Shown: positions 13,412-17,350 of the stretch, piece by piece
Layout: each line of letters starts with the position of its first letter
Position numbering within the stretch: position 1 is the stretch's first letter
NCBI RefSeq assembly: GCF_016767715.1
Contig: NZ_CP050145.1
Coordinates: forward strand, 558,001-622,000
Direction: 5' to 3'
Source of the DNA: Mycobacteroides chelonae
Lineage (GTDB): Bacteria; Actinomycetota; Actinomycetes; Mycobacteriales; Mycobacteriaceae
Length of the DNA: 64,000 bases
Translations under genes and position numbers: made by a program
Notes under the pieces: model-generated
The model's database searches: none
What the model was told of the DNA's origin: nothing
The model's input: only the letters and a program-made list of their open reading frames with translations

Positions 13412-14665
13412 GTGGTACAGGCCCAACATCCCCACTTGCCGGATGGTATCGACTTCACCGATCCCGATCTTTTTGTGCACGGGATCCCAGAGGTCGAGCT
13501 CGCCGAACTGCGGCATACCGAACCGATCTGGTGGAATCACACCGAGCGTGGGGTCGGCGGATTCGATGATGACGGTTTCTGGGTGGTGTCGAAACATAAA
13601 GATGTCAAAGAGATCTCACTTCGGTGCGATGTATTCTCCAGCGAGCAGAACACCGCGATACCGCGCTATCTGGCCACCACGCCGCGTGAGCGCATCGACG
13701 CGACCCGCTTGATCATGCTGAACATGGACCCACCGCGGCACAGCAGGTTGCGGCACATCATCAGCCGAGGGTTCACGCCGCGCGCGGTGAACCGGCTCCG
13801 CGATGACCTCAATGCCCGCGCGCAGGGCATCGCGAAATCGGCGGCCCGACTGCAGCACGGCGACTTTGTGGAACAAGTGGCTTGCGAGCTTCCGTTGCAG
13901 GCCATCGCCGGTTTGTTGGGCACTCCGCTCGAGGAACGCGAGCAGCTGTTCGACTGGTCCAACAGGCTGGTGGGTTCCGACGATGGCGAGGATGACAGCG
14001 CGATCGCCAGCGCCGAGCTGTTGATGTATGCCATGCAGGTCGCGGCACGCAAGACAGCGGAGCCCGGCCCGGATATCTGTACCGACCTGGTGAATGCCGA
14101 TATCGATGGGCAGAAGCTTTCCGATGACGAGTTCGGTTTCTTCGTCATGCTTTTGGCGGTGGCCGGCAATGAGACGACTCGCAACTCCATCACTCATGGA
14201 ATGCATGCCTTCACGCAGTTCCCGGAGCAGTGGGAGTTGTACAAGAAGGAGCGTCCGGAGACGGCGGCCGATGAGATTGTCCGTTGGGCAACACCGGTGA
14301 CGTCTTTCCAGCGCACTGCGCTGGAGGACACCGAGCTTGGTGGTGTGAAGATCAAGAAGGGTCAGCGGGTGGTGATGATGTACCGCTCGGCCAACTTCGA
14401 TGAAGAAGTCTTCGAGAATCCGTTTACCTTCGACATCATGCGTAACCCCAACCCGCATGTGGGATTTGGCGGAAATGGCGAACACCATTGCGTCGGATCC
14501 AACCTGGCCCGCATGACCATCAACCTGATGTTTAACGCCATCGCCGATCACCTGCCGGACCTCGCGTCGGCGGGCGAGCCGGACAGGCTGCGATCCGGAT
14601 GGCTCAACGGGGTCAAGCACTGGGAAGTTGACTTCTGCCCGGCCGGGTTCGGGCGGGCCAGCTGA
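13412..14665 (+). CDS. CYP125-type cytochrome P450, first of two copies
   Basis: 417-residue cytochrome P450 resembling CYP125A1, the steroid C26/C27 hydroxylase that starts side-chain oxidation. The GTG at 13412 follows GGGAGGT. P450 signatures: I-helix AVAGNETTRNSITHG, ExxR in the region of ADEIVRWATPV, and heme loop FGGNGEHHCVGSN with the cysteine thiolate ligand. It is a paralog of the P450 at 16091. Most of the gene differs from that copy at many third positions, but bases 14207-14415 are identical to 16889-17097. A KstR operator lies upstream and a terminator downstream. It could have a shifted substrate or regiochemistry preference (CYP142-like work), but that cannot be read from sequence. 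Confidence 0.85.
   Translation: MVQAQHPHLPDGIDFTDPDLFVHGIPEVELAELRHTEPIWWNHTERGVGGFDDDGFWVVSKHKDVKEISLRCDVFSSEQNTAIPRYLATTPRERIDATRLIMLNMDPPRHSRLRHIISRGFTPRAVNRLRDDLNARAQGIAKSAARLQHGDFVEQVACELPLQAIAGLLGTPLEEREQLFDWSNRLVGSDDGEDDSAIASAELLMYAMQVAARKTAEPGPDICTDLVNADIDGQKLSDDEFGFFVMLLAVAGNETTRNSITHGMHAFTQFPEQWELYKKERPETAADEIVRWATPVTSFQRTALEDTELGGVKIKKGQRVVMMYRSANFDEEVFENPFTFDIMRNPNPHVGFGGNGEHHCVGSNLARMTINLMFNAIADHLPDLASAGEPDRLRSGWLNGVKHWEVDFCPAGFGRAS
14207..14415 (+). repeat. 209-bp tract identical between the two CYP125 genes (copy 1)
   Basis: Base-for-base identical to 16889-17097. It encodes about 69 shared residues from FTQFPEQWELYKKERPE to SANFDEEVF. Sequence on either side diverges abruptly at synonymous sites, which indicates recent gene conversion. 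Confidence 0.95.
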
Positions 14666-14669
14666 CGAA

Positions 14670-14702
14670 AAGGCCCCCGGACACCGAGGTGCCGGGGGCC
14701 TT
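14670..14702. terminator. Bidirectional hairpin terminator between the first CYP125 gene and fadA5
   Basis: Perfect 11-bp stem AAGGCCCCCGG / CCGGGGGCCTT with an 11-base loop, placed between the convergent P450 and fadA5 stops. It has short A and T flanks on each side, fitting termination in both directions. Confidence 0.8.
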
Positions 14703-14712
14703 CGCGCAGGTA

Positions 14713-15873
14713 CTAGATCCGCTCGATGATGGTGCCGGTGGACAGCGCGCCACCGGCACACATGGTGATCAAAGCTGTTGACTTGTCGGTACGTTCCAGC
14801 TCGTGCAGTGCCGTGGTGATCAGGCGGGCACCGGTGCTGCCGACGGGGTGCCCCAGCGCGATGGCGCCGCCATTGACGTTGACCCGGTCGAAGTCCGGCT
14901 TGTGCACCGCGGCCCAAGAAAGCACCACCGAGGCGAAAGCCTCGTTGATTTCGACGACGTCGATATCGCCGATCTTCATGCCCGCGCGGTCCAGCACGCG
15001 CTGCGTCGACTGCACCGGGCCGTCCAGGTGGTAGTAGGGCTCGGCGCCGACGAGTGCCTGCGACACGATGCGGGCGCGCGGCGTCAGGCCCAGTGAGCGG
15101 GCCTTGTCCTCGTCCATGAGCAATACCGCAGCCGCACCGTCGGAAATCTGCGAGGACGTACCGGCTGTGTGAATACCCTCCGGCATAACGGGTTTGAGGT
15201 TTCCCAGAGATTCCAGGGTGGTGTCGCGCAGGCCCTGGTCGCGGCTGACCGTCAGGGTCTCACCGGTGGGGTTACCTTCCTTGTCCACCTGCGGCGCATC
15301 AAGCGCGGTGATCTCGCGATCGAATCGTCCTTCGGCCCATGCCTGCTTGGCCAGTGCCTGCGAGCGCACTCCGAGGCCGTCGACATCGGCGCGGGTGATG
15401 CCGCGGCGCTTGGCAATCCGCTCTGCTGCCTCGAACTGATTGGGCATGTCGATATCCCAGGACGCGGGGCGGGGGATGCCGGTGCCGCCGACGTTGGCGC
15501 CCAGTGGCACGCGGCTCATCGATTCGATACCGCAGGCGATGCCGGTGTCGATCGCACCGGAGTAGATCAGGCCGGCGATGAGGTGGTTGGCCTGCTGCGC
15601 GCTGCCGCACTGGCAGTCGATGGTGGTGGCACCGGCGGCTTCGGGCAGCCCGGCGTGCAGCCATGCCTGCCGAGTGATGTGGCCGCCCTGCTCACCGAAC
15701 TGGGTGACACAGCCGCCGATAACCTGCTCGACTTCGTGCGGATCCAGACCTACACGGGTGATCACCGACTTCTGGATGCTGCCGAGCAGCTCGGCCGGAT
15801 GCAGGCCCGCGAGCCATCCACCACGTTTGCCGATGGCGCTGCGCGTCGCTTCGACGATGACCGGATTACCCAT
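14713..15873 (-). CDS. fadA5: FadA5-like thiolase of the cholesterol side chain
   Basis: 386-residue thiolase (M. tuberculosis FadA5 has about 391) that removes acetyl-CoA or propionyl-CoA units from side-chain beta-keto-CoA intermediates. The catalytic nucleophile is in [12 protein letters not shown] (near residue 90), the histidine in [15 protein letters not shown], and the second cysteine in [12 protein letters not shown]. The ATG at 15873 begins [17 protein letters not shown], the normal thiolase N-terminus, after GGAGC. It is divergent from the second CYP125 gene, with two KstR-like sites in between, matching the Rv3546/Rv3545c arrangement. Confidence 0.9.
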
Positions 15874-15926: not shown

Positions 15927-15939
15927 TCTGGAAGCAATG

Positions 15940-15953
15940 AGAACGTGTTCTCC
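15940..15953. promoter_or_regulatory. Second KstR-like operator in the fadA5/cyp125 gap
   Basis: GAGAACGTGTTCTC is a perfect palindrome with the AACnnGTT core of KstR sites. It is 13 bp from the first site, so two dimers could bind side by side. Confidence 0.72.
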
Positions 15954-16090
15954 CCCCATCCACCACGTTTTGTCTGCGCTGATCGTGTGCTTCAATGGGG
16001 CTAGAGAGTGTCGTATCTCACTAAGCTCTCACTAGATGCTCTAACAAGATCGTCCCTGAATGACGCCCTGAAAGGCCATAGGAGTTCAAC

Positions 16091-17350
16091 GTGGTGCACC
16101 CCAGCCTTCCCGCCGGTTTCGACTTCACCGACCCGGAGATCTACGCAGAACGGCTCCCGATCGAGGAGCTCAAGGAGCTACGGAAGACGGCTCCGATTTG
16201 GTGGCAGGAGCAGCCCGACGGCGTCGGCGGCTTCAATGACGGCGGGTATTGGGTCGTCTCCAAGCACAAGGACGTCAAGGAGGTGTCGCTGCGTAGCGAT
16301 GTCTTCTCCAGCTGGGAAAACACCGCCATCCCGCGGTTTCAGGATGACATCACCCGCGAGGCCATCGAGCTGCAGCGCTACGTGATGCTCAACATGGACG
16401 CCCCGCATCACACCCGGCTGCGCAAGATCATCTCCCGCGGTTTCACGCCCCGGGCGATCGGCCGGCTGCGCGACGAGCTGAACGAGCGCGCTCAGCAGAT
16501 CGCGAAGGCCGCCGCGGCGACCGGCTCGGGTGACTTCGTGGAGCAGGTGTCCTGCGAGCTGCCGTTGCAGGCCATCGCGGGTCTGCTCGGGGTGCCCATC
16601 GAGGACCGGGGCAAGCTCTTTAACTGGTCGAACGAGATGACCTCGTACGACGACCCCGAGTTCTCGCACATCGACCCGGCGGCATCGTCGATGGAGATCC
16701 TCGCCTACTCGATGGAGATGGCGAAGCAGAAGTCCGAGAATCCCGGCGAGGACATCGTGACCACCCTTATCAACGCCGAGGTTGAGGGCGAGGGCAAGCT
16801 CTCCGATGACGAGTTCGGCTTCTTCGTGATCATGCTCGCGGTGGCCGGCAACGAGACCTCACGCAACTCGATCACCCAGGGCATGATGGCCTTCACGCAG
16901 TTCCCGGAGCAGTGGGAGTTGTACAAGAAGGAGCGTCCGGAGACGGCGGCCGATGAGATTGTCCGTTGGGCAACACCGGTGACGTCTTTCCAGCGCACTG
17001 CGCTGGAGGACACCGAGCTTGGTGGTGTGAAGATCAAGAAGGGTCAGCGGGTGGTGATGATGTACCGCTCGGCCAACTTCGATGAAGAAGTCTTCGACGA
17101 TCCGTTCAGCTTCAATGTCATGCGTAACCCGAATCCGCACATGGGATTCGGTGGCAGCGGTGCGCATTTCTGCATCGGTGCGAACTTGGCGCGGCTGACG
17201 ATCAACCTGATGTTCAACGCCATCGCCGACCACATGCCCAACCTGGCTCCGGCCGGCGACCCGAAGCGACTGCAGTCTGGCTGGCTCAACGGCATCAAGC
17301 ACTGGCAGGTTGATTTCAACGGCGCCAGCGGTTGCCCGGTTCTGCACTAG
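16091..17350 (+). CDS. cyp125: CYP125A-type steroid C26/C27 monooxygenase
   Basis: 419-residue cytochrome P450 and the better match to M. tuberculosis CYP125A1 (Rv3545c), especially in the C-terminus LQSGWLNGIKHWQVDF. It oxidises the terminal methyl of the cholest-4-en-3-one side chain to the alcohol and then the acid. The GTG at 16091 follows TAGGAG. Features: I-helix AVAGNETSRNSITQG, EIVRW region, and heme loop FGGSGAHFCIGAN with its cysteine ligand. It heads an operon with fadE28, fadE29, chsH2, chsH1 and ltp2, the same order as in M. tuberculosis. It contains the 209-bp tract shared with the P450 at 13412. Confidence 0.92.
   Translation: MVHPSLPAGFDFTDPEIYAERLPIEELKELRKTAPIWWQEQPDGVGGFNDGGYWVVSKHKDVKEVSLRSDVFSSWENTAIPRFQDDITREAIELQRYVMLNMDAPHHTRLRKIISRGFTPRAIGRLRDELNERAQQIAKAAAATGSGDFVEQVSCELPLQAIAGLLGVPIEDRGKLFNWSNEMTSYDDPEFSHIDPAASSMEILAYSMEMAKQKSENPGEDIVTTLINAEVEGEGKLSDDEFGFFVIMLAVAGNETSRNSITQGMMAFTQFPEQWELYKKERPETAADEIVRWATPVTSFQRTALEDTELGGVKIKKGQRVVMMYRSANFDEEVFDDPFSFNVMRNPNPHMGFGGSGAHFCIGANLARLTINLMFNAIADHMPNLAPAGDPKRLQSGWLNGIKHWQVDFNGASGCPVLH
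16889..17097 (+). repeat. 209-bp tract identical between the two CYP125 genes (copy 2)
   Basis: Exact partner of 14207-14415 in the same orientation, 2682 bp away. As direct repeats, the pair could also recombine to delete fadA5 and fuse the two P450 genes. Confidence 0.95.

Follow-up and report, generated by a model that had tools for sequence, protein, structure and literature searches.

Locus and gene pair

The window analyzed in this work, a stretch of 64,000 nucleotides (nt) of Mycobacteroides chelonae (contig NZ_CP050145.1, positions 558,001 to 622,000; the source genome, referred to as G000, is a single contig of 5.06 Mb), carries two cytochrome P450 genes of the CYP125 type, here named gene A and gene B, which share an internal segment of 209 bp without a single difference. 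An earlier note on this DNA, based on the sequence alone, had proposed a recent gene conversion between the two genes. Positions are those of the window unless gene positions are indicated, and the features on which the argument depends are the following:

13412..14665, plus strand: gene A, second CYP125-type cytochrome P450, 417 amino acids (Pfam PF00067; open reading frame list)
14207..14415, plus strand: probable conversion tract in gene A, touching residues 266-335 (exact match to 16889-17097; permutation and topology tests)
14713..15966, minus strand: fadA5-like steroid 3-ketoacyl-CoA thiolase gene, between both P450 genes (NF005889, 721.6 bits, cut-off 515)
16091..17350, plus strand: gene B, P450 similar to CYP125A1, 419 amino acids, within a cholesterol side-chain type cluster
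16889..17097, plus strand: probable conversion tract in gene B, touching residues 267-336 (exact match to 14207-14415)

Both products are assigned to the CYP125 family, given that their nearest relatives are CYP125 enzymes and that the ExxR and heme-Cys motifs are present (EIVR at residue 288 in A and 289 in B; CVG/CIG at 360/361). Judged by its sequence (737 bits against the structures 3ivy/7r1i) and by the neighbouring genes, gene B is the predicted orthologue of CYP125A1 (Rv3545c, steroid C26-monooxygenase); gene A, whose best solved relative is also CYP125A1 (3ivy, 615 bits), is placed in the same family by sequence. The two genes had been described as tandem, which is right as to their orientation but not as to their adjacency, since the fadA5-like gene intervenes on the minus strand.

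Extent and edges of the identity

The segments 14207-14415 and 16889-17097 lie 2,682 bp apart in the same orientation, and their identity, as claimed, is exact over 209 bp and stops there, the next base at each end being a mismatch. The edges are as sharp as had been reported, with a T/G mismatch at 14206/16888 and a G/C mismatch at 14416/17098. The whole genes show 72.9% nt identity in a codon alignment, and the next longest exact run between them in G000 is 17 bp. When the mismatches were permuted, 209 bp was reached in none of 20,000 permutations (longest run, 54). The many synonymous differences noticed elsewhere in the genes are also borne out: 104 of the 277 codons that specify the same amino acid in both copies (Met and Trp excluded) differ between A and B, and the longest run of identical codons of this kind, 66, was reached in 0 of 100,000 permutations (longest, 32). 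Windows of 20 codons contain 15-34 nt differences over most of the gene and none in the two windows that fall wholly inside the tract. The paralogues are thus more identical than expected by chance, synonymous sites included, and the identity ends abruptly with ordinary divergence on both sides, two of the marks of interlocus conversion.

According to motif positions, the tract corresponds to residues 283-352 of CYP125A1; it starts at AFAEHPDQ (283), contains ExxR (305-308) and ATPVTAF (310-316), and ends in NFDEEVF, while the I-helix motif AGNETT (268) and the heme Cys (377) are outside. We take ATPVTAF to be substrate recognition site 5 (SRS5), and the helix names used here (K helix, I-helix) are likewise our assumption. 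In PMC12429392, Val313 and Phe316 are listed among the ligand-contacting residues of CYP125A1, and SRS5 is placed in beta 1-4. The position of the tract after the I-helix and over the ExxR area agrees with the first description. The accompanying statement that the substrate-recognition regions and the heme loop were left distinct holds for the heme-Cys loop, which is outside, but not for SRS5, which is inside together with Val313 and Phe316; the proposal that the tract homogenises the redox core holds as a description of its position, any functional effect being putative. The B-C loop stretch after NTAIPR (SRS1) and the F-G part of the pocket are visibly different in the A-B alignment. Among the six computed species without a recent tract, the A-B amino-acid difference is 4-11% in the tract, 38-42% upstream and 25-27% downstream.

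Occurrence in other genomes

A search for gene A in 396 genomes of the genus gave nine matches at a nt identity of at least 79%, own genome included, and a tenth gene-A genome (D16Q14) was obtained from a named collection. Strains present under two names were counted once (D16Q13 is G189, D16R12 is G168, CBMA 271 is G146, M. franklinii CV002 is G242, and LB1 is G309), and one genome per species was compared. All ten gene-A genomes of the Mycobacteroides clade also carry gene B. The named loci with a gene A of 80-93% amino-acid identity number five and come either from Mycobacteroides (M. franklinii CV002, sp. CBMA 271) or from strains of Mycobacterium sp. D16. The two genes are on one stretch, approximately 2.7 kb apart, in seven of the ten genomes; in the other three (G189, G309, D16Q14) a contig break inside the thiolase gene or next to it separates them. 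The sister genome of G000, G091, shows ~95.4% identity to it over the 40 kb compared.

Exact A-B runs within the tract measure 209 bp in G000, 83, 40 and 38 bp in G091, and 144 and 35 bp in G146; in six other computed genomes (G309 left out) they are of 29 bp at most. In G091 the two copies are 96% identical in the tract, with flanks of 66% and 77%, and this genome carries an eroded, older version of it. Differing tract boundaries, which the earlier note had suggested looking for between strains, were found between species: in positions of G000 gene A, the identical stretches of G146 cover 862-1005 (144 bp) and 808-842 (35 bp), and that of G000 covers 796-1004. A recombination test in the manner of GENECONV, of the kind named in the earlier note and based on 100 A-B pairs, 2000 permutations and the 196 codons that are polymorphic while their amino acid is invariant, detected a run of 43 sites in G000 and one of 30 sites in G146 (global P 0/2000 each). 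A run of 28 sites between gene A of G000 and gene B of G091 had a P of 0.002, and the next of the 25 best pairs was not significant (P 0.20). Cross pairs of G000 and G091 were excluded from the cross-species averages, both those of synonymous divergence and those of the GENECONV-like analysis, and the analysis of net divergence used all pairs; the cross-genome A-B synonymous averages rest on 89 pairs, one of which (LB1 gene B with G309 gene A) is actually within-genome, as was corrected in the GENECONV-like test. In the tract, within-genome copies are closer to each other than orthologues of different species are in G000, in G146, and in G091 when it is compared with species except G000; this was not seen in the other seven of the ten. 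From these results, it is well supported that the tract of G146 is independent of the event in G000, so that two independent recent events are well supported.

A second stretch shared by A and B was observed at gene A positions 1103-1145 (window 14514-14556), over NLARxTINLMFNAIADH, with 43 bp in G091 and G219 and 32 bp in G242. As a candidate second conversion zone it failed the global test (P 0.42 for G219, 0.57 for G242).

Trees, divergence and outgroup controls

The tree of the 209 columns from the ten species rejects a split between A and B genes by 59 log-likelihood units (approximately unbiased (AU) test, p 0.00022), and in both flanks the tree constrained to this split is as likely as the best one; the tract tree therefore conflicts with the flank trees, a further mark of interlocus conversion. 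Synonymous-codon divergence in the tract is 32% for A-A, 33% for A-B (different genomes) and 30% for B-B; the values upstream are 37%, 53% and 26%, respectively. Sites at which A and B have disjoint alleles in the ten species number 0 among the 209 of the tract versus 113 in the whole gene.

The seven species without a recent tract show a moderate sign of older mixing between A and B. Conserved codons with disjoint A/B codons amount in these species to 0/54 in the tract versus 13/173 outside (Fisher p 0.042), and the tract has the lower net divergence between paralogues (codon permutation p 0.0002). Older mixing is likely. Several results weigh against the conversion explanation or limit it: a recent tract was not seen in seven of the ten species; for these seven the AU test does not reject the A/B split in the tract (p 0.44), and a genus-wide, equally strong conversion zone was not upheld, as they keep the split; the net-divergence value is reached by 4 of 227 circular shifts, counting the one without displacement; for the ten species the contrast in disjoint codons is 0/54 versus 10/167 (Fisher p 0.12); the AU test becomes borderline (p 0.054) when 240 instead of 209 columns are used, a set that includes fixed A/B differences at 786 and 793-795; and one early event could account for all of the older mixing.

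The outgroup set consisted of 72 genes, namely 79 loci less 7 of Mycobacteroides and D16 strains, with single- and multi-copy species unsorted. Conservation of the block base for base in distant species, which would have spoken against conversion, was not seen in this unsorted set, whose genes are 74.2-84.7% identical to it. Among 1497 outgroup pairs of 66-78% identity, the longest shared runs have a median of 29 and a maximum of 60 bp, and in six non-neighbouring within-genome pairs of CYP125-like genes from other mycobacteria they are of 28-43 bp. Chance as the cause of the identity is ruled out by the permutations, the GENECONV-like test and these outgroup run lengths.

Timing and direction of the last event

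Synonymous A-B differences in the tract are 0/65 codons in G000 versus 8/66 in G091 (Fisher p 0.006), and the two genomes differ from each other at gene positions 933 and 963 in both copies alike; this joint change requires a conversion after the G000/G091 split, or else twin mutations. The conversion had been called recent, which is appropriate for the latest G000 event, but there has been more than one exchange of the segment.

In the tract, gene A of G000 is 99% like gene B of G091 and 96% like gene A of G091, so copying from B to A is favoured, although not proven, for the last G000 event. The core tree places the G000/G091 group among the B genes (support 77-82), and at two of three near-diagnostic sites in the tract, 850 and 897, both G000 copies have the B-type base. 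Pointing the other way, both have the A-type base at the third, 885, and the G+C content at third codon positions (GC3) of the tract shared by G000 and G091 is low (0.79-0.81 vs 0.88 in the rest of gene B) and fits gene A better, which hints that earlier copying may have run from A to B. In G146, the two near-diagnostic sites inside its tract, 885 and 897, are A-type in both copies; on the little evidence that two sites give, this suggests a direction from A to B there.

The comparison of G000 with G091 revealed one more feature that reaches into the tract:

15755..17025, no strand assigned: block nearly free of G000-G091 differences, ending inside the tract (3 differences vs 46 expected at the local mean)

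This block was selected by scanning 9 kb for the interval poorest in differences. In the 798 bp of gene B upstream of the tract, 3 differences were seen where ~19 were expected (Poisson ~1e-5), after correction for the slower gene B with a ratio taken from one comparison, that of G000 with G168. The block, which covers the beginning of the fadA5-like gene and the greater part of gene B, is probably the product of a recent exchange between the G000 and G091 lineages. Imported DNA may thus have taken part in the conversion.

Interpretation

We conclude, with a probability of approximately 0.85, that the segment with the K helix (ExxR) and SRS5 underwent interlocus gene conversion between old CYP125 duplicates, with the cell's own copy as template. 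The exact identity, the GENECONV-like test, the conflict between trees and the tract edges that differ between species all argue for conversion between both genes. The duplication would be old, prior to the split of the sampled Mycobacteroides species, and the copies would since have diverged to ~73% nt identity; non-reciprocal homologous recombination inside the cell would then have replaced the segment of one copy by that of the other. The mechanism may be a RecA-type repair templated by the other copy, the direct copies being 2.7 kb apart in the same orientation; this template was presumably the cell's own gene B and not imported DNA, with the last G000 event running from B to A. Pairing would be possible in this segment and its outcome harmless because the A and B proteins are most alike there, the near-invariant protein preserving unbroken identity for pairing; the flanks may be too diverged to pair, or exchanges in them may be removed by selection. 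It is conceivable, although we consider it somewhat doubtful, that the K-helix/SRS5 segment is a shared module exchanged repeatedly and in both directions throughout Mycobacteroides, so that both enzymes retain one catalytic scaffold while other parts of the protein, such as the B-C loop (SRS1) and the F-G part of the pocket, drift apart.

Among the alternatives, an ectopic import, in which the tract of gene A comes from the imported gene B of a related Mycobacteroides, is the likeliest and is nonetheless improbable. The block 15755-17025 is almost identical to G091 and ends inside the tract, which makes a transfer of DNA between the two lineages at this place probable, and exchange between subspecies is documented in M. 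abscessus (PMC4756508); however, genes A and B of G000 also agree at 933, 951 and 963, where gene B of G000 differs from that of G091, and copying from the cell's own gene needs no extra donor. Considerably less probable is an assembly or polishing artefact in which both copies would have been built from the reads of one. Very short reads could miss a tract of this length, and the last few differences that set G000 apart from G091 could in principle have been lost in this way, but the genome of G000 is a single contig, the separately assembled, single-contig G091 has the segment at its own 96% A-B identity between much more diverged flanks, and G146, another assembly, has a tract of its own. 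With the assemblies of G091 and G146 also showing it, a fault in a single assembly does not explain the whole phenomenon.

An explanation without conversion, by which extreme purifying selection at the protein and base level, or a minus-strand frame overlapping the segment, keeps it identical, is the least credible of all. It accounts for the near invariance of the protein segment relative to the upstream region, and long minus-strand open reading frames do overlap the tract; nevertheless, third positions that are identical between A and B in G000 are free between species (30% of conserved codons differ for B-B, 32% for A-A), for which reason selection at the base level and an overlapping minus-strand gene are rejected, and the conversion favoured over strong selection in the earlier note is retained. 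The moderate identity of the outgroup genes and the short runs of the six within-genome pairs are also at odds with it.

Relation to known cases

Conversion is a known kind of process, and the CYP125 pair is a new instance of it. In PMC13061034, the conversion tracts between M. tuberculosis paralogues (PE, PPE and ESX families) are likewise short, with a median length of 101 bp, and non-reciprocal, and RecA-mediated strand invasion is given as their cause. The cases treated there concern mostly virulence-associated and antigen families in strains of one species, whereas the CYP125 pair consists of catabolic P450 genes, is seen in a comparison between species, and is affected in one protein segment only. 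The long-lasting concerted evolution of 26 prokaryotic genes, tuf included, also represents repeated homogenisation of paralogues across species (PMC6053082); in the main text of that survey, the homogenisation is of full length and the terms 'P450' and 'Mycobacter' are absent, whereas in the CYP125 pair 209 bp of 1.25 kb are involved, and in part of the species. In the literature search, which most subscription papers fell outside of, no paper joined CYP125 with gene conversion, and none of those listed dealt with this pair as judged by title and start of abstract; as for two mycobacterial P450 surveys, the available text of one lacks the term 'gene conversion' (PMC5018878) and that of the other the word 'conversion' (PMC9820752).

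These results suggest that gene conversion in mycobacteria goes beyond antigen families and also reshapes catabolic enzymes, in this case in a cluster of the cholesterol side-chain type. Since conversion is resisted by the flanks of these very genes, the pair is a natural experiment on what limits it, sequence identity or functional selection. In practical terms, trees or typing schemes based on CYP125 in the Mycobacteroides clade can mix two histories.

Neighbouring genes and contig ends

Downstream of gene B the following genes were found:

17332-18435, plus strand: acyl-CoA dehydrogenase gene
18442-19608, plus strand: acyl-CoA dehydrogenase gene
19616-20587, plus strand: ChsH2-like gene

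In M. tuberculosis, cyp125 usually has these three genes beside it, and a gene A is not known at the corresponding place in that species. The match of NF005889 to the fadA5-like protein begins at residue 32, and the true start of this gene may be near 15873.

In two draft genomes, G309 and G189, contigs break in the fadA5-like gene. In each, another contig end (the end of contig C5 of G309, 378144-378274, L161; contig C30 of G189, 2-30, L162) repeats bases of the fadA5 start region, as far as query position 1190 in both cases; this would be explained by a further, almost identical fadA5 copy elsewhere. The genes beside this other contig end, to go by their translations, presumably encode a TetR-type regulator, a SulP-type transporter and a PEP (phosphoenolpyruvate) carboxykinase.

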